DNA of 40,204 bases. Source: Actinomycetota bacterium (lineage in GTDB: Bacteria; Actinomycetota; Thermoleophilia; Gaiellales; Gaiellaceae). Below, in pieces: positions 1,078 to 16,582 of the stretch. A program made the translations under genes and the position numbers. Each line of letters opens with the position of its first letter. The first letter of the stretch is position 1. The notes below the pieces were generated by a model that did not search any database, was not told where the DNA came from, and was given only the letters and a program-made list of their open reading frames with translations. Location: NCBI GenBank assembly GCA_005888365.1, contig VAWZ01000002.1, forward strand, positions 9,985 through 50,188, given 5' to 3'.

Positions 1078-1442
1078 TGGAGGCGGGGGGAATCGAACCC
1101 CCGTCCGCGGTCGCACCGGGCAGAACGTCTACGAGCGTAGTCCGTGCTTGATCTCACCCGCCGGCCGGTTCACGGACGACCAACCGACGGGCCAGCCATC
1201 CTTCAATGTCGCGCTCCGGGCGATTGGCTCTCCCTCGGCGCCGAGCCCGATAGTTGGCGCCGACTCCCGGGTCTCGGGCCGAACCCGGGTCGGCGTCGCC
1301 AGACCTAGCTTCTACTAGGCGGCGAGTGCGAGTTCGTTCTTGTTCGCACTTGCTTTGGTGCCGGTTGATTTACGAGGCCAACCGGCGACCTCGGCTCGCA
1401 GCTCTGCCGGAGAACCGACCACGTCGAAACCTGGTCGCCCCC
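1078..1442 (-). ncRNA. ssrA: Transfer-messenger RNA (tmRNA)
   Basis: On the minus strand the molecule starts GGGGGCGACCAGGTTTCGACG and ends GGGTTCGATTCCCCCCGCCTCCA. These ends form a tRNA-like acceptor stem of 7 pairs (one G-U) and a T arm. The terminal CCA is not fully encoded, since the sequence continues TAA after CCTCCA. An internal reading frame closes with ANKNELALAA and TAG (tag plus stop 1315-1353 if the resume codon is GCA, giving ASANKNELALAA). The exact resume codon cannot be fixed by eye. The RNA tags stalled nascent chains for proteolysis together with SmpB, whose gene lies 5 kb upstream on the same strand. Length is 365 nt, normal for a one-piece tmRNA. Confidence 0.95.
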
Positions 1443-2581: not shown

Positions 2582-3424
2582 CTAGCGTCCGGCAGCCTCC
2601 TCGAGAGCGCGCCGGCCGAGCACCGTCGCGAGATGACGCCGGAACTCCGCGCTGGCCGCGGTGTCGGACGACGGCTCGCTGCCTGAAGCGATGAGCGGTG
2701 CCGCGTCTACGATCGCCGCGCCGCCGGCGATCGCCTCCTCCGCCTGGGTCGCCCGGAGCGGAGTCGCTCCCATGTTCGTGAGCCCGATCGCCGCCCGTCC
2801 GATCGAGCCGTTCCTGCGCTCGACCAGTGTGGCGACCGCGACCGTCGCCCAGTCCTGAGCCCGGCGGCTCATCTTCATGTACGAGCAGCCCGTCGTCGAA
2901 GGGAGCTTCGGCACGCGGATCTCCACCAGCAGCTCCGTCGGCTCGAGCGCGGTTTGGAACACACCCGAGAAGAACTGCGCTGCCGGGACAATGCGTTCGC
3001 CACTCGGGCCGCGGATCACCATCTCGGCGTCGAGGGTGAGCATCACGGTGGGCAGGTCGGAGGCGGGGTCGCCGTGGGCGAGCGATCCGCCGATTGTCCC
3101 GCGGTGACGCACTTGCGGGTCTCCGACCTGCCCAGCCGCACTGGGGACGAGGGGACAATGCTCTTGCAGGAGCGGCGCCTCGACGACGTCCTTGTGCCTC
3201 GTCAGCGCCCCGATCGCGATGTGGTCGCCGGCATCGCGGACGTAGGAGAGGTCGCGGAGCCGTCCGATGTCGACGAGCAGCGATGGGCGGGCGAGGCGAA
3301 GCTTCATCGCCGGCAGCAGGGAATGGCCGCCCGCGAGCAGCTTGGCGTCCTCCCGCCCGCCGAGCAGCTCGAGCGCGTGCTCGGTGCTCTCGGCGACCTC
3401 GTAGTCGAACGTGGCGGGAATCAT
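2582..3424 (-). CDS. Molybdenum hydroxylase FAD-binding subunit (CoxM/CutM type)
   Basis: The 280-residue protein carries the two FAD-binding motifs of the xanthine dehydrogenase/CO dehydrogenase medium subunit: AGGHSLLP at 31-38 and TIGGSLAHGDPASDLP at 110-125. A C-terminal CO_deh_flav_C-like region follows. It passes electrons from the iron-sulfur subunit to FAD and on to an acceptor. The ATG overlaps the stop of the large-subunit gene by 4 bases (ATGA-type), so the two are translationally coupled. It is the last gene of a small-large-medium operon. The substrate cannot be told from this subunit. Confidence 0.93.
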   Translation of the reverse strand: MIPATFDYEVAESTEHALELLGGREDAKLLAGGHSLLPAMKLRLARPSLLVDIGRLRDLSYVRDAGDHIAIGALTRHKDVVEAPLLQEHCPLVPSAAGQVGDPQVRHRGTIGGSLAHGDPASDLPTVMLTLDAEMVIRGPSGERIVPAAQFFSGVFQTALEPTELLVEIRVPKLPSTTGCSYMKMSRRAQDWATVAVATLVERRNGSIGRAAIGLTNMGATPLRATQAEEAIAGGAAIVDAAPLIASGSEPSSDTAASAEFRRHLATVLGRRALEEAAGR

Positions 3425-5781
3425 GACTTCGCCTCCTCGATCGCGCGCCAGACTCGTTCCGGGGTTGCCGGCAGCTGGATGTCGCTGACTCCCAGATGCG
3501 AGAGCGCGTCGACGACGGCGTTGATCACGGCCGGTGTGGCCGCGATCGTCCCGGTCTCCCCCACTCCCTTCACTCCGAGCGGGTTCGTGGGGCTCGACGT
3601 CTCGATCCGGTCGGTCTCGAACGACGGGAGCTCTGCGGCGGACGGGACGAGGTAGTTCGTCATCGTCGTCGTCAGCAGATTCCCGTCCTCGTCGTAGATC
3701 CCCTCCTCGTAGAGAGCTGCCGAGATCGCCTGCGCGATCCCACCGTGCACCTGACCGTCGATGATCTCCGGGTTCACGGGAACGCCGACATCGTCGACCG
3801 CGACGTAGCGGACGAGCCGCGTGTCACCCGTCTCGGTGTCGACCTCGACGATCGCCGCATGGGCCCCGCTCGGCCAGGAGAAGTTCGGCGGGTCGTACAC
3901 CGCCGTCGCCTCGAGACCGGGCTCGAGGCCGTCCGGCAGGTTGTGCGCCGCATGAGCCTGGAACGCGATCTCCTGGATCGACATCGTCCGGTCCGGCGAG
4001 CCCTTGACGCTGAACGAGCCGTTCGCAAACTCGAGGTCGTCGGGCGAGACCTCGAGCTGGTGGCTGACGATCTCGCGCGCCTTCCCGATGATCTTCTGGC
4101 TCGCGTGCCAGAGCGCTACGCCGCCGACCGCGAGCGAGCGGCTTCCGTAGGTGTCCATGCCGAGCTGCGAGACGGCGGTGTCGCCGTGCAGTACCTCGAC
4201 CACGTCGACGTCGACGCCGAGCTGGTCGGCGACGATTTGTGCCCACGTCGTCTCGTGGCTCTGCCCGTGCGGCGAGGTTCCGGTGACGACCTGGACGGAG
4301 CCGAGCGGCTGCATACGGATCGTCGCGCTGTCCCAGCCGCCCACCGCGAAGCGGACCGCGCCGAGGATACGCGAGGGAGCGAGGCCGCACATCTCGGTGT
4401 ACGTGGAGAAGCCGACGCCGAGCTGCTTTACGTCGCCGTGCTCTCGGCGAGCTTTCTGGTCGGCTCGGATCGAGTCGAGATCCAGGAGCTCGAGCAGCTT
4501 GTCGAGCGCAGCGTGGAAGTCGCCCGCGTCGATCGTCAGTCCGGAGGCCAGCGTCGCGGGAAACTCGCTGATGAAGTTCTTGCGCCTGAGCTCGAGCGAG
4601 TCCATCCCGAGCTCCTCGGCGAGCGCCTCGATCGTGCGCTCGATGACGTAGGTCGCCTCCGGGCGCCCGGCTCCGCGATATGCGTCGGTCGGTGTCGTGT
4701 TCGTGAAGACCCCGGTGAACGTGACCGAGTAGTTGGGGATGTCGTAGGCGCCGTTGTAGATCCACGCGCCGAGCAGCGGGATTCCCGGCGTGACGAGCTG
4801 GAGGTACGCGCCCATCGCGCACTTCGCGTCCGACTTGACGGCGGTGATCTTCCCGTCCTTCGTCGCGGCGAGCGTGAACTCGTGCACGACGTCACGGCCG
4901 TGGATCGTGGCGACGTAGTTCTCCGCGCGCTCCTCCGTCCACTTGACTGGCCGCCCCAGCCGTCGCGCGAGCGCCGCCGCGAGGGCTTCCTCGGCGTAGA
5001 CGTTGAGCTTCGACCCGAAGCCGCCCCCGACGTCGGGCGCGATCACACGGATCTTCGACTCGGGGATGCCGAGGACGAGCTGGAGCGCGAAGCGCAGGAT
5101 GTGCGGCACCTGCGTCGCCGACCAGACGGTGAGCTCTCCGCCGGGACCGGCCTGCGCCACGACCGCCCGCGGCTCCATCGCGTTCGGGATAAGACGCGGT
5201 TGGACGTACCGCCGGGTGACGACGACGTCGGCAGCTTCGAGCGCGGCCTGGAAGTCGTCCGTCTCGAGCTTCCAGACGTAGCACTCGTTCGTGCCCAGAT
5301 CCGAGTGGACGATCGGCGCGCCTTTCTCGAGCGCCTTGTCGACGTGCGCGACGGCAGGGAGCTGCTCGTACTCGACCTCGACCAGCTCCGCAGCATCCTT
5401 CGCGAGGGCACGGCTCTCGGCCAGGACGACCGCGACGCCGTCGCCCTGGAAGCGTGTCTCGCCCGTCGCGAGCGGGAAGTGCGGCGGAATCTTGATGTCC
5501 TCGGTGACGGGCCACGCGCAGGGAAGCGAGCCCTGCCAGTCCTCGGCCAGCTCCGCGCCGTCCAACACGGCGACGACGCCTTCGGCCGCACGCGCGACGT
5601 CGGTAGACACGCGCGTGATGTGCGCATGTGCGTACGGGCTCCGCACGACCGCCATGTGGACCGTCCCAGGGGGCGCGATGTTGTCGACCCACGTCGCGCG
5701 GCCCCTGAGCAGAGACGCGTCCTCCTTGCGCTTGACCGACGTGCCGACGAAGGTCGTGGTCTTGGACTCGGTCACGGTCAT
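3421..5781 (-). CDS. Molybdenum hydroxylase large subunit, form II CoxL-like
   Basis: At 786 residues this is the expected length for the molybdopterin-binding subunit. It shows GGGFGSK (252-258), the active-site loop AYRGAGR (367-373) and a C-terminal GVGETG with the likely catalytic glutamate at 742. True aerobic CO dehydrogenases (form I) carry AYxCSFR at the loop. AYRGAGR marks the form II group, whose substrates are mostly unknown, so naming this a CO dehydrogenase would be unsafe. The gene directly abuts the iron-sulfur subunit gene and overlaps the FAD subunit gene by 4 bases. No dedicated maturation genes (coxE, coxF or a XdhC-like protein) are in the operon. Confidence 0.93.
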   Translation of the reverse strand: MTVTESKTTTFVGTSVKRKEDASLLRGRATWVDNIAPPGTVHMAVVRSPYAHAHITRVSTDVARAAEGVVAVLDGAELAEDWQGSLPCAWPVTEDIKIPPHFPLATGETRFQGDGVAVVLAESRALAKDAAELVEVEYEQLPAVAHVDKALEKGAPIVHSDLGTNECYVWKLETDDFQAALEAADVVVTRRYVQPRLIPNAMEPRAVVAQAGPGGELTVWSATQVPHILRFALQLVLGIPESKIRVIAPDVGGGFGSKLNVYAEEALAAALARRLGRPVKWTEERAENYVATIHGRDVVHEFTLAATKDGKITAVKSDAKCAMGAYLQLVTPGIPLLGAWIYNGAYDIPNYSVTFTGVFTNTTPTDAYRGAGRPEATYVIERTIEALAEELGMDSLELRRKNFISEFPATLASGLTIDAGDFHAALDKLLELLDLDSIRADQKARREHGDVKQLGVGFSTYTEMCGLAPSRILGAVRFAVGGWDSATIRMQPLGSVQVVTGTSPHGQSHETTWAQIVADQLGVDVDVVEVLHGDTAVSQLGMDTYGSRSLAVGGVALWHASQKIIGKAREIVSHQLEVSPDDLEFANGSFSVKGSPDRTMSIQEIAFQAHAAHNLPDGLEPGLEATAVYDPPNFSWPSGAHAAIVEVDTETGDTRLVRYVAVDDVGVPVNPEIIDGQVHGGIAQAISAALYEEGIYDEDGNLLTTTMTNYLVPSAAELPSFETDRIETSSPTNPLGVKGVGETGTIAATPAVINAVVDALSHLGVSDIQLPATPERVWRAIEEAKS

Positions 5782-6246
5782 CTAGCTCACCCCCGCTGCG
5801 GCGGCTGAAACTGCACGAACGATGTTGTGGTACCCGGTGCAACGGCAGAGGTTGCCCTCGAGGCCCTCCCGGATCGCGGACTCGCTCGTCGCCTTGCCCT
5901 CCTCGATCAGGCTGACGGCGGCGAGCACCATGCCGGGCGTGCAGTAGCCGCACTGGAGAGCGTGGTGCTCGTGAAACGCCTGTTGCACTGCGTGGAGCTG
6001 CCCGTTCGACGCGAGACCTTCGATCGTCGTGATCTCCAAGCCGTCGGCCTGGACGCCGAGCATCGTGCAGGACTTGACCGACTCTCCTCCGACGAGGACG
6101 GTGCAGGCTCCGCACGAGGACGTGTCGCAGCCGATGGTCGTACCGGTGAGCCCGAGGCGCTCCCGGAGCACGTAAACGAGAAGCTCACGGGGCTCCAACT
6201 CGAGCTCGTGGCGCGATCCGTTTACGGTCAGCGCTACGTGTCGCAA
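5782..6246 (-). CDS. Molybdenum hydroxylase [2Fe-2S] subunit (CoxS type)
   Basis: All eight cluster cysteines are present: C40, C45, C48 and C60 for the plant-type cluster, and C99, C102, C134 and C136 for the second cluster (CGYC and CRC). I place the start at a TTG (6246) giving MRHVALTVNG and 154 residues, the usual size, because GGAAGGAGG lies 7-8 bases upstream. The longer ORF-track start at 6432 would overlap smpB by over 100 bases and adds sequence with no homology. It is the first gene of the three-gene operon. Confidence 0.92.
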   Translation of the reverse strand: MRHVALTVNGSRHELELEPRELLVYVLRERLGLTGTTIGCDTSSCGACTVLVGGESVKSCTMLGVQADGLEITTIEGLASNGQLHAVQQAFHEHHALQCGYCTPGMVLAAVSLIEEGKATSESAIREGLEGNLCRCTGYHNIVRAVSAAAAGVS

Positions 6247-6316
6247 GGCACACCCCTCCTTCCCTGCGAGTTGGACAGGACGAGCGTACTCCTCCCGCAC
6301 GCTCTGTGCACGTTTG

Positions 6317-6781
6317 TCAGCGGCGCCGTCGTAGGGCTCGCTCGACCTGCCGCTTGGCGTCGCGGTCGGCGATCGCGTGGCGCTTGTCGTAGCGCTCCTT
6401 GCCGCGCGCGAGAGCGAGCTCGACCTTGGCACGCCCGTCCTTGAAGTACATCCGCGTGGGGACGAGCGTCAGCCCTCTCTCGCGCACCTTCCCGTAAAGA
6501 GAGTCGATTTCGCGCCGGTGCAGGAGAAGTTTGCGGTCGCGCCCGGGCTCGTGGGCGAAGCGTGCGCCCTGCTCGTGCTCGTCGATCGACGCGCCTACCA
6601 GCCAGGCCTCGCCGCCGCGGACCTCTGCGTACGCCCCCGCGAGGTGCACCTTTCCCGCGCGCGCGGCCTTCACCTCGGTCCCAGAGAGCACGAGCCCGGC
6701 CTCGAGCCGCTCGAGGAGCTCGTAGTCGAACCGAGCACGGCGATTCTCGGCGATCAGCTTGGTTCCGGTCGGCGCCGCCAC
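6317..6781 (-). CDS. smpB: SsrA-binding protein SmpB
   Basis: The 154-residue protein matches SmpB throughout: IAENRRARFDYELLE near the start, GLVLSGTEVKAARAGKVHL, the central YAEVRGGEAWLVGASI, and a basic tail GKERYDKRHAIADRDAKRQVERALRRRR that enters the mRNA channel. It binds the tRNA-like part of tmRNA and brings it to stalled ribosomes. The GTG start has no ribosome binding site but sits 7 bases after a TACACT -10-like box, so the message is probably leaderless. In many actinobacteria ssrA follows directly; here the molybdenum hydroxylase operon and moxR lie between. Confidence 0.96.
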   Translation of the reverse strand: MAAPTGTKLIAENRRARFDYELLERLEAGLVLSGTEVKAARAGKVHLAGAYAEVRGGEAWLVGASIDEHEQGARFAHEPGRDRKLLLHRREIDSLYGKVRERGLTLVPTRMYFKDGRAKVELALARGKERYDKRHAIADRDAKRQVERALRRRR

Positions 6782-6811: not shown

Positions 6812-6863
6812 TCCTACGCTGGGTTCCTACGCTGGCGCTTCTACGCTGGGCTTCTACGCTGGG
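6812..6863. repeat. Four-copy 13-14 bp tandem repeat
   Basis: The core TACGCTGG starts at 6815, 6828, 6842 and 6855, giving periods of 13, 14 and 13 bases within a unit close to TTCTACGCTGGGC. The rightmost unit contains the TAG stop of the cyclic-nucleotide-binding gene. The others fill the gap up to the smpB promoter. On the minus strand each unit carries an in-frame-independent CGTAG. Confidence 0.75.
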
Positions 6864-7258
6864 CTCTCGACGTCGCTGAGCCTGCGCGCGAGCTCCCGCA
6901 GCATCTTGAGCGCGAGCGACGGCTCGCTCTCGAGAAGGGCGAGAGCATCGTCCCGCGCCATGCTCAGGCACTTCGCGTGGGTCGCCGCGCGCACGCGCGC
7001 CACTCGACCGGAGGGGACGAGAAGCGCGACCTCGCCGAAGAAGCTTCCGGGCCCGAGCTCCGCGTGGAAGCCGCCTCGAACCTCGACGCTGACGGTTCCC
7101 TCCAGGACGACGTACATGCCGGATCCCGGATCGCCCGGCACCGCGAGCACCTGTCCCGGCTCGCATTCGATCACCGCGGCATGGGTGGCGAGCCGCTCGA
7201 GGCCGGCCTCCGAGAGGCCCTCGAAGAGCGGAACCGAGCGGAGCTCCTCGCGAGTCAT
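6854..7258 (-). CDS. Stand-alone cyclic nucleotide-binding domain protein
   Basis: From the ATG at 7258 (MTREELRSVPLFEGLSEAGLERLA) the protein is 134 residues and is essentially a single cNMP-binding domain. LFEGLSEAGL is the entry helix, and FGEVALLVPSGRVARVRA is the phosphate-binding cassette with its Glu and Arg. No helix-turn-helix follows, so unlike CRP it is not an obvious DNA-binding protein and more likely works as a sensor or partner subunit. The 554-residue ORF in the track only adds out-of-frame helicase sequence upstream. It starts 20 bases after the helicase gene and is probably co-transcribed with it. Confidence 0.85.
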   Translation of the reverse strand: MTREELRSVPLFEGLSEAGLERLATHAAVIECEPGQVLAVPGDPGSGMYVVLEGTVSVEVRGGFHAELGPGSFFGEVALLVPSGRVARVRAATHAKCLSMARDDALALLESEPSLALKMLRELARRLSDVESPA

Positions 7259-7278
7259 GCGCGGTTCATACCACGCGA

Positions 7279-8925
7279 CTAGCGGCGTGCCATCGCGGCA
7301 CAGCGGTCGCAGAGCGGGAACCACGGCGGGCACGAGCGCCCGCACGAGCGGCAGCGCCCGATCGTCGGAGACTCGACCTCGAGCCGAAGCCGAGCGACGA
7401 CGCGCTCGGCCGCCGCCTCTTCCAAGGCAGCGGCGCGCTCGATCGAGACACCTCCGACGCCGGGGTACTGCAGAGCGAACCAGCGGAGGATGCTCGCCGC
7501 GCGGCCCGCCTGCTCGGCGTCTTCGAGCGATGCGCCGCGAAGGCGTGCGGTGTCGAGGAGAAAGTTGAGCTGCGGACGCGCGACGGGATCGCCGGCGAGC
7601 GCGAGCGCGAGATTCGCGAGGAGCTCGAGGCCGTCCTCGTCGACGGGCGCGCTCACCAGCGTCCACGTGTCGCCGAGAGAGAGCCGACGGCCGCGATCTC
7701 GCAGGCGGCGTTGCACCGCGTCCAGGCGCAGCCGGATCGGTTGCAGCGACTCGACCGCGAGCCAGCTCTCGTGCGCCCACTCGCGGATAGCAACACGGTG
7801 CCACGCGACCAGGGCGGCGTCGAGATCGGCCGGCTCCTCGACGGAGAGATCCGAGAGCCGAGGCCGGATGCGAGCCTCGTCGACTACCCGGTAGCCCCTG
7901 TGTCCGCCGGGCAGCGGAACGTGCGGCTCGAGCGCCGACTCGACGACACCGGGGTCGGGGTCGCCCCAGACGAGGCCGGCGAGAACGCCCACGTGCCCAC
8001 GCTCGACGAGGCCGAAGCGTCCCGCCCGGCCCGCGATCTGCGCCAGCTCCCACGGGAGCAACGTTCGCCGCTCCTGCCCGTCGAACTTCGTCGTCTCCGC
8101 GAAGAGGAGCGTCTCGCAGGGGAGATTGACCCCGTGGCCGAGGACGTCGGTCGCGACGCACACGTCGGCGGCCCCCGAGAGAAAGCGTTCGATCTCCTCG
8201 CGGCGCGACGCGAGCGGCATCGCTCCGTAGAGGACGGCGACGCGGCCGGGGTAGAGCCGGTTCACCTCTCCGGCGAGGGCGAGAACCGCGCGGCGACTGA
8301 AGGCGACGACGACCGTGCCGGTCTTTAGCGAGCGGAGCGTCCGCTCCCCGACCCACTCGAGCGGGAGCTTCCGGCCGAAGACCTTGAGCTCTGCCTGCGG
8401 GAACGCGCGCTCGACGAGCGGCAACGCATCGAGCGCGCCGAGCAGGAGGATCTGTCGATATTCGCCGGCGAGCAGCAGTCGCGTCCACGCCGAGCCGCGC
8501 TCCTCGTCGTCGGCCCACTGCACCTCGTCGAGGACGAGAAGCTCACCCCTGCCCGGCGCCATCTCGACCGTGGAGCAGACGATCGGAGCACCCTCGTTCA
8601 CCCGCTCTTCTCCCGTGACAAGCGCCACGCGCTCCGCGCCGAGGCGTGCGCCGAGCCGGCGATGTGCCTCCTGCGCGAGCATGCGAAGTGGTCCCGCGTA
8701 CACGCCGACGCCGGCCGTGGCCAGCTCCTCGAGCGCGGCGTGCGTCTTTCCCGAGTTCGTCGGCCCGAGGTGGGCGACGACCCGCACCGGTGCTATCCGC
8801 CGCGAGGGGAGCGAGATCTCGATGCGCCTCTCGGCTGCGCGCACCGCGTGGGCCGGACGACGGCGCGCGCGCTCGGAGCGGCTGGGCCGCTTCTGTCGTC
8901 CGCCCGCGGTTCGTCGGTGGCGCAT
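7279..8925 (-). CDS. SUV3-like ATP-dependent RNA helicase with C-terminal zinc finger
   Basis: The 548-residue protein begins with a basic tail of about 45 residues. It then shows the SUV3 hallmarks: Walker A GPTNSGKT (54-61), GPLRMLAQE, a DEVQ box (133-136), VLYGAMPLASRREEIERF, VATDVLGHGVNLP and motif VI QIAGRAGRFG (296-305). SUV3 is the mitochondrial degradosome helicase, and bacterial relatives are scattered. The end carries CRSCGRSC and CDRC (C525 to C542), a likely zinc ribbon that could bind RNA or a nuclease. The ATG has no ribosome binding site, and a TACGGT -10-like box ends 6 bases upstream. It sits between ftsX and smpB, near trans-translation genes, so a role in RNA turnover or ribosome rescue is tempting but unproven. 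Confidence 0.88.
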   Translation of the reverse strand: MRHRRTAGGRQKRPSRSERARRRPAHAVRAAERRIEISLPSRRIAPVRVVAHLGPTNSGKTHAALEELATAGVGVYAGPLRMLAQEAHRRLGARLGAERVALVTGEERVNEGAPIVCSTVEMAPGRGELLVLDEVQWADDEERGSAWTRLLLAGEYRQILLLGALDALPLVERAFPQAELKVFGRKLPLEWVGERTLRSLKTGTVVVAFSRRAVLALAGEVNRLYPGRVAVLYGAMPLASRREEIERFLSGAADVCVATDVLGHGVNLPCETLLFAETTKFDGQERRTLLPWELAQIAGRAGRFGLVERGHVGVLAGLVWGDPDPGVVESALEPHVPLPGGHRGYRVVDEARIRPRLSDLSVEEPADLDAALVAWHRVAIREWAHESWLAVESLQPIRLRLDAVQRRLRDRGRRLSLGDTWTLVSAPVDEDGLELLANLALALAGDPVARPQLNFLLDTARLRGASLEDAEQAGRAASILRWFALQYPGVGGVSIERAAALEEAAAERVVARLRLEVESPTIGRCRSCGRSCPPWFPLCDRCAAMARR

Positions 8926-8998: not shown

Positions 8999-9877
8999 TT
9001 AGATCTTGAGGAACCTGCGCAGGGTGAGGCCCGAGCCGATCCCACCGATGCCGAGCCCAACGGCGATGAGGATCGTGCAGGTCCACACGAAGGGCATCGC
9101 GTGGACGTTGGGATCGTTCTGGATGTGCCCGAGGATCGCGGGCACCGCGACCGCCCGGCCGAGGACCAGGAGAGCGATTGCCGCCAGGGCTCCGAGCGCA
9201 CCGGTCAGCAGTCCTTCGAGCATGAACGGCCCACGGACGAACCAGTTCGTAGCTCCGACGAGCTTCATCACCTCGACCTCCCTACGGCGCGCGAAAATCG
9301 AGAGCCGGATCGTGTTCGCGATGTCGATGGTCGAGGCGACGAGCAGGATGATGATCGCGACCAGGAAGACGACCTGGATCGCGCGCGCGATCTGCAGGAT
9401 GCGCTGCGAGACCTCCTTGCCCCAGCGCACCTCGTCGACGCCGGGGAGCTTGGCGCCCTTGACCGCCAGGGCGATGTCCTCCGTGTCCTCCCCGCGCTTC
9501 GGAGTGACGTCGAACGACGCCGGCAGCGGGTTGGAGGCGAGGTTCGACGTGAGCTCCGGAGCACGCTTCCGCATGAGGTCGAGCGCCTTTGCCTTCGTGA
9601 TGAAGTCGATCCCGCCCGGTTTCACGCGCGGGTTCGCCTCGAGGAAGCGCCCGACGGCGTTGATCTGCTTCTTGGTCGCCGCGTCCGTCAGGAACACGTG
9701 GACCACGAGCTCCTTCTTCTTGTTGTCGGACCACGAGACGAGCCAGGTGCCGAGGCCGACGAAGACGCCGAGCAGGAACATCCCGACGAGGACGGTCGCT
9801 GCCGTGGCGAGCGTCGTCGACTTGTTTGCTCCGATCGAGCGCACCGCCTCCGACACCAAGAGACGGAACCTGATCAC
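8999..9877 (-). CDS. ftsX: Cell division ABC transporter permease FtsX
   Basis: At 292 residues it has a short cytoplasmic start, a first membrane helix (about 20-42) and a large extracytoplasmic domain (about 45-165) with KKQINAVGRFLEANPRVKPGG. Three further membrane segments near 170-195, 220-245 and 265-285 complete it. FtsX works with FtsE to activate peptidoglycan hydrolases at the septum. Its ATG overlaps the ftsE stop by 4 bases. The hydrolase or S41 peptidase gene that often follows ftsX is absent here and the SUV3-like helicase takes that place. Confidence 0.95.
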   Translation of the reverse strand: MIRFRLLVSEAVRSIGANKSTTLATAATVLVGMFLLGVFVGLGTWLVSWSDNKKKELVVHVFLTDAATKKQINAVGRFLEANPRVKPGGIDFITKAKALDLMRKRAPELTSNLASNPLPASFDVTPKRGEDTEDIALAVKGAKLPGVDEVRWGKEVSQRILQIARAIQVVFLVAIIILLVASTIDIANTIRLSIFARRREVEVMKLVGATNWFVRGPFMLEGLLTGALGALAAIALLVLGRAVAVPAILGHIQNDPNVHAMPFVWTCTILIAVGLGIGGIGSGLTLRRFLKI

Positions 9878-10803
9878 TCTGCGCCGTACCCGCCGCGCCG
9901 CTCGTCCCGGACGAGCTTCCCTTCCTCGAGCGCGATGACGCGCTTGCGCATCTTGTCGACCATCTCGCGGTCGTGCGTGACCATGAGGATCGTGGTCCCC
10001 GTGCGGTTGATGCGATAGAGGAGCTGCATGATCCCGACGGACGTGTCGGGATCGAGGTTGCCGGTCGGCTCGTCGCAGACGAGGAGCGGGGGATGGTTCA
10101 CGAACGCGCGCGCGATGGAGACGCGCTGCTGCTCGCCGCCCGAGAGCTCCTCCGGACGCGAGTTCATCTTGTGCGCGAGCCCGACCATGTTCAGCACCTC
10201 GGGCACCTTCTTGCGAATCTGTCCGCTCGACTGGCCTTGCACACGCAGCGCGTAGCCGATGTTCTCGGCGGCTGTGCGGTTCGGGAGGAGCTTGAAGTCC
10301 TGGAAGACGCAGCCGACGTTTCTCCGCAGCAGCGGAACCTTGGAGCGCTTGAGGCGGCCGAGGTCCCTCCCACCGACGATGATCCTGCCCTGGGTAGAAT
10401 CGAGCTCCTTCAGGATGAGGCGCACGACGGTCGACTTTCCCGAGCCGGACGCGCCGACGACGAAGACGAACTCGCCCTTATCGATCGTGAACGAGACACC
10501 GTCGAGCGCGACGACGTGCGGCTCGTACACCTTCTGCACGTCCTCGAACACGATCATCGTGGAGCCGCTCGGCTCCGCCTCAGCTGGCTGCCCAGCTTCC
10601 GCCGACACAGCTTCCGCCGGCCCAGCCTCCACAGGCCCGGCCTCGAGCTCACCCTCGAGGGTCTCGATCTGTTCGGGCTCTGGCTCGGCGAGGGCGGTCA
10701 TCGAAGTGTCGGGTTGAGACTCGTCTTCCAGCACCGGATCGAGGGTCGACGCAGCCGCAGAAGGCCGCTCCGGCTCATTGGAGGCGCCGATTCTAGCTGA
10801 CAT
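9874..10803 (-). CDS. ftsE: Cell division ATP-binding protein FtsE with N-terminal extension
   Basis: The ATPase core starts at Met83 ([18 protein letters not shown]). It contains Walker [10 protein letters not shown] (117-125), the signature LSGGEQQR, Walker B LLVCDEP, a switch histidine in VTHDREM, and the FtsE-specific [16 protein letters not shown]. Before it lie 82 residues that are acidic and rich in Ala, Glu and Pro, with repeats such as [18 protein letters not shown], which FtsE normally lacks. I keep the long start because its ATG is 12 bases after the prfB stop, while the internal ATG (10557) would leave a 258-base gap and has no good ribosome binding site. If the short start is real, the extension is untranslated. 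Confidence 0.93.
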
Positions 10804-10815
10804 ATCGGCGCATCT

Positions 10816-11923
10816 CTAGACGACTCTCCCGGCCGCCTTCGCGAGCAAGTAGGCGTGGACGAACCCGTCGAGACGGCCGTCGAGCACCGACTGCGCGTTC
10901 CCGACCTCGAAGTCCGTCCGGTGGTCCTTCACGAGCTGGTATGGGTGGAGCACGTACGAGCGGATTTGACTCCCGAAGCCGATGTCCTGCGCCGCGCCCC
11001 GCTCCTTCGCCAGCTCGGCCTCGCGCCGCTCCTCCTCGAGCTCGGCGAGGCGTGACTTGAGCACGCGCATGGCCGTCGCCTTGTTCGAGGCCTGGGAGCG
11101 CTCGTTCTGGCACTGGACGACGATCCCGGTGGGAAGGTGGGTGATCCGGACCGCCGAGTCCGTCTTGTTGACGTGCTGTCCGCCCGCGCCCGTCGCGCGG
11201 TAGGTGTCGATCCGCAGGTTGTTCTCGTCGATCTCGATCGGCGCCTCGTCGGGCAGCAGCGGCGCGACGACGACCTGCGCGAACGCCGTGTGACGGCGGT
11301 GAGCCGCGTCGAACGGCGAGAGCCGGACCAGCCGCTGCACCCCGCGCTCCGCCTTGAGCGTCCCGTACGCGTTCTCTCCCCGGACCGCCATCGTCGCGGA
11401 CTTCAACCCCGCTTCCTCGCCGGGGCTCGCCTCGAGCATCTCGGTCTCGAACCCGCGGTCGGACGTCCACCGCTGGTACATGCGAAGGAGCATCTCGGCC
11501 CAGTCCTGGGCGTCGGTTCCGCCGGTGCCGGCGTGGATCTCGAGGATCGCGTCGCCTGCGTCGTATTCGCCGGTGAAGAGAGCGTCCTCCTGCAGGCGCT
11601 CAAGCTCGTCCTCGATCGGAGTGAGCTGCTCCGCGAGCTGCTCCTCGAACGCCGGGTCGAGCTCGAAGAGCTCCTTCGCGTCCTCGTACTCGTGTTGCAG
11701 GCGCTCGTAGCGCGCGAGCCGGCGGCTCAGCCGGGCGTGGTCGGTCGAGACCTGCTGCGCTCGAGATTGATCGTCCCAGAAGCCCGGAGCCTGCATCTCC
11801 GTCTCGAGCGCCTCGCGCCGCTGCCCGATCCGCTCAGGGTCAAAGGTAATCACGGACCCAGGCGAGCTGGGCCCCGATCTGTTCCAGTCGCTCCGCGAGC
11901 GGCTTCCCGTTGGCCTCGGACAC
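10816..11923 (-). CDS. prfB: Peptide chain release factor 2, made by programmed +1 frameshift
   Basis: The first frame runs from a GTG at 11923 through MSEANGKPLAERLEQIGAQLAWVRDYL and meets TGA at 11842-11840. The main frame continues DPERIGQRREALE from the +1 position to 10816. Together they make 368 residues, the normal RF2 length. RF2 marks are the SPF tripeptide (about 202-204) for UGA/UAA recognition and GGQ (247-249) for peptide release. The ORF-track start at 11955 misses the real N-terminus. The gene follows secA in the usual order, separated by a secreted-protein gene, and precedes ftsE by 12 bases. Confidence 0.95.
11839..11845 (-). promoter_or_regulatory. prfB recoding site CTT-TGA-C
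   Basis: The minus strand reads TAC CTT TGA CCC at codons 26-29, the same slip site used in Escherichia coli prfB. When RF2 is scarce the ribosome pauses at TGA, slips one base forward on CTT and continues with GAC. The Shine-Dalgarno-like stimulator 3 bases before the slip site in E. coli is not clear here; only a GGGT is seen about 11 bases upstream. Confidence 0.93.
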
Positions 11924-11929
11924 GCGGCG

Positions 11930-11935
11930 ATGGTA
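11930..11935 (-). promoter_or_regulatory. Putative -10 box before the prfB GTG
   Basis: TACCAT ends 6 bases before the GTG start of prfB and no ribosome binding site is present, the same layout as at several other genes in this window. No -35 box is convincing. Confidence 0.3.
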
Positions 11936-11963
11936 GCCGAGGGCCGTGAAGGCATCCTCGAGC

Positions 11964-16072: not shown

Positions 16073-16468
16073 TTAGGCCGCGGCGTCGCCCTGCTCGGTC
16101 GCCGAGTCCTCGGGCGGCACGACCGGGACGGGAGGCGCCTCTTCGCGGTGACGCGCGGTCCGGCGAGGCTCGTGGGTGCGCTTGTCCCGATACCGCTCGA
16201 CCTGACGCTCGAGCTTGTCCACGAGTCGGTCGATCGCAGCTTCGTAGCTCAACGCAGACTCCCGGGCAACGAGCGTCGGGCCCTTCGTGTGCACGACGCC
16301 GTCGGCGGTGTGGTCGTCCGAGATCGACGGATTGTGTTCACGGGAGAGCGTGACCTCGACGAGCGTGAGGTCGTGCAGGCGCTTGTCGAGCTTCCCCAGC
16401 CGCTTCTCCGCATAGACCCGGACCGATTCCGGAAGACGCTCGTGGTGGGCCTTGACCTGAAGGCGCAT
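16073..16468 (-). CDS. hpf: Ribosome hibernation promoting factor, short type
   Basis: Starting at ATG 16468 (MRLQVKAHHERLPESVRVYAEKRLGKLDKRL) the protein is 131 residues. Its S30AE/HPF domain has the beta-alpha-beta-beta-beta-alpha pattern, including VEVTLSREHN, VVHTKGPTLVARES and YEAAIDRLVDKLERQVERYRDKR. A 25-residue low-complexity tail follows. It lacks the C-terminal dimerisation domain of the long HPF usual in actinobacteria, so it should behave as a short form. GAAAGGAG directly before this ATG makes the longer 160-residue ORF-track start unlikely. It lies upstream of secA as in many Gram-positive genomes. Confidence 0.9.
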   Translation of the reverse strand: MRLQVKAHHERLPESVRVYAEKRLGKLDKRLHDLTLVEVTLSREHNPSISDDHTADGVVHTKGPTLVARESALSYEAAIDRLVDKLERQVERYRDKRTHEPRRTARHREEAPPVPVVPPEDSATEQGDAAA

Positions 16469-16582
16469 GGCTCTCCTTTCGAGTCGCTGCCCCTTTGGAA
16501 CTCGCTTCAAAATGAGCGCCGTGTCGGCATGCGGCTCCTCTCGACGGGCGATCATTCTGGAACGAGTTCTTCGGACTCGAAT

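Follow-up and report, generated by a model that had tools for sequence, protein, structure and literature searches.

A predicted Suv3-type RNA helicase gene in the RNase R slot beside smpB in part of the Gaiellaceae

The window analysed here is a stretch of 40,204 nucleotides, and its source genome is a Gaiellaceae MAG of 2.66 Mb that is 92% complete. Open reading frames and a Pfam scan of the window give the gene order prfB-ftsE-ftsX-helicase-cNMP-smpB-xdhCAB, in which the name prfB is provisional. The features on which the analysis draws are the following:

1078..1442, minus strand: tmRNA gene with the tag ANKNELALAA, downstream of smpB and of an xdh-like operon
6317..6781, minus strand: smpB (tmRNA-binding protein), which in gene order borders the slot on the right (family scan)
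6854..7258, minus strand: stand-alone cNMP-binding domain protein, 134 aa, a neighbour of the helicase at genus level (Pfam, locus comparison)
7279..8925, minus strand: predicted Suv3-type DExH/Q RNA helicase, 548 aa, with two RecA domains, an all-helical C-terminal domain and a zinc tail
7300..7353, minus strand: putative zinc-ribbon-like C-terminal tail of the helicase, C525-x2-C528-x10-C539-x2-C542 (alignment of relatives)
8011..8040, minus strand: helicase motif VI, QIAGRAGRFG, residues 296-305
8518..8529, minus strand: helicase motif II, DEVQ, residues 133-136
8743..8766, minus strand: helicase motif I, GPTNSGKT, residues 54-61, invariant (alignment of relatives)
8999..9877, minus strand: ftsX, which in gene order borders the slot on the left (family scan)
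9874..10803, minus strand: ftsE, a member of the conserved order prfB-ftsE-ftsX-slot-smpB (family scan, locus comparison)
10816..11955, minus strand: a gene that we take to be prfB (release factor 2) from features of its sequence and its position among the neighbours, part of the same conserved order

The original prediction had placed the helicase and cNMP genes as a pair between ftsX and smpB, and family scans verified the neighbours FtsX, FtsE and SmpB. The tmRNA gene lies on the same strand, past smpB and the xdh-like operon, so that ssrA, smpB and the helicase gene all fall within 8 kb of one strand. Adjoining smpB on the minus strand (2582-6432) is a three-subunit molybdenum hydroxylase operon of the xanthine/CO dehydrogenase type, encoding FeS, Mo and FAD subunits, which is also kept in the window's own genus, in genus g23 and at several further helicase loci. 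At one locus (G003, L100:8145-8953) the interval from the cNMP gene to xdhC gave no match to SmpB, reflecting either an assembly gap or a divergent gene.

Assignment of the helicase to the Suv3 type, originally made from the three motifs listed above, was confirmed by family and fold searches. The protein matches DEXQc_Suv3 (PF22527, E 9.9e-33, 113 bits against a cut-off of 27) and Helicase_C (3.9e-10), both above cut-off, and a profile of 18 relatives searched against the PDB gave Suv3 as its best match (6f4a, 1.9e-54), with the sequence match spanning the two RecA domains only. An AlphaFold model of the helicase reached a pLDDT of 92.3 and a pTM of 0.88 with a diverse alignment as input, which raised the quality from a pLDDT of 66.6 obtained with closely related sequences. 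Its best fold match is human Suv3 over nearly the full length (3rc3; E 2.7e-29, TMq 0.74, rmsd 3.6 A, 537 columns); other Suv3 entries come next, Mtr4, Ski2 and Hel308 follow at a TM of about 0.45, and among the fold matches listed a TMq over 0.5 is reached by Suv3 entries only. Residues 357-518 of the model, mostly helical and of high pLDDT, make up the all-helical C-terminal domain that follows the RecA domains and is covered by the Suv3 match. The N-terminal domain and the C-terminal dimerisation tail of mitochondrial SUV3 are not recognisable in the 548-aa protein, whose core starts near residue 45; both were counted as accessory parts and not as defining for Suv3 membership. The gene is under purifying selection (dN/dS about 0.06-0.14), and its product is regarded here as a bacterial Suv3-type, probably 3'-to-5', RNA helicase, predicted to unwind RNA. 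Another family of the class (f10) has frames of 730-950 aa that match PF22527 at about E 1e-9; we regarded these as other DExH helicases and left them out of the Suv3 count.

A C-terminal C-x2-C-x3-C-x6-C-x2-C cluster had also been pointed out. It exists in this protein, but its fifth cysteine (C532) is lost in several genera and the five-cysteine cluster was ruled out as a defining motif, since C-x2-C-x10-C-x2-C alone is conserved across relatives. By alignment, this four-cysteine tail is kept in Gaiellaceae, other actinobacterial MAGs, Actinomadura violacea and one Chloroflexi MAG.

The helicase has the DEXQ domain, motifs I, II and VI, the all-helical C-terminal domain and the full-length fold in common with mitochondrial Suv3/SUPV3L1, the motor of human SUV3-PNPase and of yeast mtEXO (Suv3-Dss1), but differs in its short basic N-terminus, in its zinc-ribbon-like C-terminal tail and in its place in a former RNase R slot. 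Bacterial Suv3 homologues named 'helicase-related protein' (Azospirillum, Ideonella plasmids) are 43-47% identical over the helicase core, although they are about 735-750 aa long, against 548 aa here, and lie in different gene contexts. For a Rhodobacter Suv3 homologue, PMC10253155 cites Dmochowska 1999.

Where the helicase is missing, its position between ftsX and smpB is held by an RNase R-type gene. A tblastn search with one checked RNase R protein (from genome G016) located such a gene in 31/31 smpB regions of helicase-less Gaiellaceae, upstream of smpB and in the same orientation, and between ftsX and smpB in all 26 of the regions that show both; the proteins are 55-75% identical to the query. 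The same search gave no match in any helicase locus examined. The displaced gene encodes RNB plus S1, and its best curated model is TIGR02063 RNase_R (1.1e-123, positions 241-710, below the equivalog cut-off), a match whose start at model position 241 indicates that the N-terminal part is missing from the slot RNase R. In one helicase-less genome (G254) the order prfB-ftsE-ftsX-RNase R is kept and smpB sits on a different contig.

The mutual exclusion extends from the slot to whole genomes, as far as can be judged from samples made up mostly of draft MAGs. In a family sample of 61 genomes, a canonical RNase R-type RNB protein was found in 0/13 helicase-bearing and 45/48 helicase-less genomes (Fisher 8.5e-11, a value that ignores relatedness and is no count of independent events); helicase absence was judged by slot or not genome-wide in nine of the 48, without which the comparison is 0/13 versus 37/39. 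The three helicase-less genomes without canonical RNB (G018, G181 and G270) are 71-88% complete, and one genome of g23 (G176) gave no helicase match. Canonical RNB was likewise found in none of 19 further helicase-bearing Gaiellaceae, which makes 0/32 in all. The window's own genome gave no RNB exonuclease in a domain search, and a Pfam scan found no RNB match in the helicase protein, which without this nuclease domain cannot be an RNase R but only part of a substitute. Of the two nuclease partners named by the original prediction, PNPase is kept in the window's own genome, the one genome searched for it (921 bits combined), whereas canonical RNase R is absent. Outside the slot, 6/32 helicase-bearing Gaiellaceae carry a divergent RNB protein, with 26-34% identity to the RNase R of the slot, as a possible exonuclease supply. 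Divergent RNB loci (L256, L257, L258, L259, L260, L261 and L262) occur in Gaiellaceae with or without the helicase.

Beyond the family, RNase R adjoins smpB in 14 of 16 loci (11 genomes of the class and five of other classes), and its recurrence in other families and classes identifies it as the ancestral occupant of the slot. A link of the gene pair to RNA decay and ribosome rescue had been suggested from its neighbours, and it is stronger than could be seen from the window, since this place beside smpB originally belonged to RNase R. In a tree of PrfB, FtsE, FtsX and SmpB, helicase-bearing genomes split into two groups (g1+g23+g37 and g24+g33), and a single helicase clade is not rejected (p-AU 0.06), so one or two swaps may possibly have taken place in Gaiellaceae; with one or two events behind the pattern, the Fisher value overstates independence. 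RNB is present in 34/34 same-class relatives outside the family in a phylum sample, the listed class members without it being four that carry the helicase, and in 189/397 genomes of the sample overall. The 12 outgroup genomes with the helicase have no RNB gene at all (0/12), but their helicase genes lie away from smpB and roughly half of the phylum sample lacks RNB, so this is only consistent with replacement and lends it weak support.

The cNMP gene has a much narrower distribution than the helicase gene. Both are present as originally described, the cNMP gene encoding a lone 134-residue domain 20 bp from the helicase gene, and the protein matches cNMP_binding (PF00027, 1.1e-16, 61 bits against a cut-off of 27.5). 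Glu76 and Arg85 of the phosphate-binding cassette are invariant in 15 cNMP sequences, and the gene is under purifying selection (dN/dS 0.11-0.37). In 9/9 testable species of the window's own genus it comes after the helicase on the same strand, with 10-20 bp between them, and across Gaiellaceae it adjoins the helicase in 11 of 29 testable loci, these nine plus L199 and G111; in G111 the two genes are about 440 bp apart with an opposite-strand SemiSWEET-like gene in between. Profile searches included, the cNMP gene is absent from the other 18 Gaiellaceae helicase loci that extend far enough downstream, where the space holds a thioesterase-like, SPW-repeat or SemiSWEET-like gene or nothing, and from all 11 outgroup loci. 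Helicase-linked cNMP proteins form one clade (support 96/95) whose nearest relatives belong to helicase-less genomes. In G254 (L118:2133-3517) a related gene lies upstream of smpB at a distance of 1 kb, an antitoxin/PIN-toxin-like pair separating the two, and in G225 (L120:3406-3798) a related stand-alone cNMP gene sits in another core operon, between ybaB and recR with zero gap to ybaB. Other stand-alone cNMP proteins of Gaiellaceae likewise consist of one PF00027 domain, about 140 aa long, in which the cassette residues are conserved, but only the helicase-linked clade is fixed, in one genus, between helicase and smpB. No paper on stand-alone cNMP proteins was found in the open-access literature. 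With 31 matches to class III nucleotide cyclases and at least nine cNMP domains in 2.66 Mb, the window's own genome has a rich cyclic-nucleotide signalling repertoire.

The original prediction named absence of the cNMP gene from most helicase-bearing genomes as the outcome that would count against the pair, and at family level this is what the loci show, with close relatives of the cNMP protein in genomes that have no helicase. As a conserved module the pair was rejected outside the genus, and the cNMP gene joined the helicase gene later, as an operon neighbour within one genus and not as a general partner. A genus-specific functional link between the two is possible, and the protein, if it binds cAMP, might modulate the operon's products, which the main explanation does not need.

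In part of the Gaiellaceae, a branch of soil and water bacteria, a Suv3-type helicase gene takes the place of RNase R between ftsX and smpB, in a slot where RNase R is the ancestral state, and canonical RNase R and the helicase exclude each other. We consider it probable, though far from settled, that the helicase displaced RNase R in situ and feeds structured RNA to PNPase much as SUV3 does in mitochondria. RNase R degrades structured RNA unaided (PMC12320835) and is brought to non-stop mRNA by tmRNA-SmpB (PMC3949413), and in Gram-positives rnr and smpB are co-transcribed (PMC3534368). PNPase acting with a helicase can fill a role similar to that of RNase R, and E. coli does not survive the loss of both rnr and pnp (PMC5818665); human SUV3 partners PNPase, its C-terminal domain being tied to PNPase and RNA binding (PMC10253155). 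Given these precedents and the retention of PNPase, the simplest account is that the helicase took over the work of RNase R together with PNPase. It would unwind structured RNA with ATP, including non-stop mRNA released by tmRNA-SmpB, and hand it to PNPase, a canonical 3'-to-5' exonuclease, so that the two together may do RNase R's job in structured and non-stop RNA decay. The N-terminal domain is the most diverse part of SUV3, and residues 722-786 of the human tail are needed for dimerisation (PMC10253155); as neither part is recognisable here, PNPase binding cannot be assumed. The broader claim, that a bacterial lineage rebuilt the mitochondrial-type Suv3-PNPase machine in RNase R's place, with a separate motor unwinding structured and tmRNA-associated non-stop RNA, we put at even chances.

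Coincidence of gain and loss at one slot, with 0/32 exceptions, speaks against a bystander loss of RNase R, in which the helicase entered by recombination at the conserved flanks with an unrelated role (rRNA maturation or DNA transactions) and PNPase or other nucleases alone cover for RNase R. That account fits the small number of independent events, the dispensability of RNB in about half of the phylum and the outgroup helicases unlinked to smpB, but mitochondrial members of the Suv3 family act together with 3'-to-5' exonucleases (PMC5758563, PMC10253155), and we judge it unlikely while taking it seriously. Less probable again is the original proposal of the cNMP protein as a dedicated regulatory subunit, with cAMP or cGMP binding switching unwinding on or off. 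The close same-strand spacing throughout the genus, purifying selection on both genes, the invariant cassette Glu76 and Arg85 and the 31 cyclase matches all speak for it; as a general rule it fails on the 18/29 Gaiellaceae and 11/11 outgroup helicase loci without the gene, on other genes filling the space, on close relatives that sit near smpB or between ybaB and recR in genomes lacking the helicase, on the split pair of G111 and on the nine or more cNMP domains of the own genome. Yeast Suv3 pairs with an RNB enzyme in mtEXO (Suv3-Dss1; PMC5758563), and the divergent RNB proteins of six helicase-bearing Gaiellaceae could be read as partners of this kind in place of PNPase, but no RNB was found in the window's own genome or in 26 of the 32 helicase-bearing Gaiellaceae and G196 and G270, which have no helicase, carry divergent RNB as well, which leaves such a partner for the helicase of this genome unlikely and the reading as a whole highly improbable.

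Replacement of RNase R by the helicase would be an analogy in part and not one of descent. The rnr gene beside smpB in Gram-positives occupies the same chromosomal slot and serves the same structured and non-stop RNA decay that is proposed for the helicase, yet RNase R is an RNB and S1 exonuclease, whereas the helicase is predicted to be ATP-driven, has no nuclease domain and shows no homology to it. In bacterial degradosomes a helicase assists a phosphorolytic exonuclease, as may happen here, but RhlB and RhlE are DEAD-box enzymes and the slot helicase is Suv3/Ski2-like. Searches of the open-access literature turned up no paper in which a Suv3-type helicase replaces RNase R.

If the replacement is real, it is a clean natural exchange of an exonuclease for a helicase, possibly repeated, given the two Gaiellaceae groups and the unlinked cases in Actinomycetota and Chloroflexota, and would give a bacterial counterpart to the mitochondrial SUV3-PNPase machine. 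It suggests that the part of RNase R that is hard to replace is the opening of folded RNA, and that this can be provided by a helicase together with PNPase. Since many bacteria are without RNase R, smpB neighbourhoods are places in which to seek other substitutes. Elsewhere in the window, an S30AE/hibernation-factor-like gene lies upstream of secA (16073-16555, minus strand).
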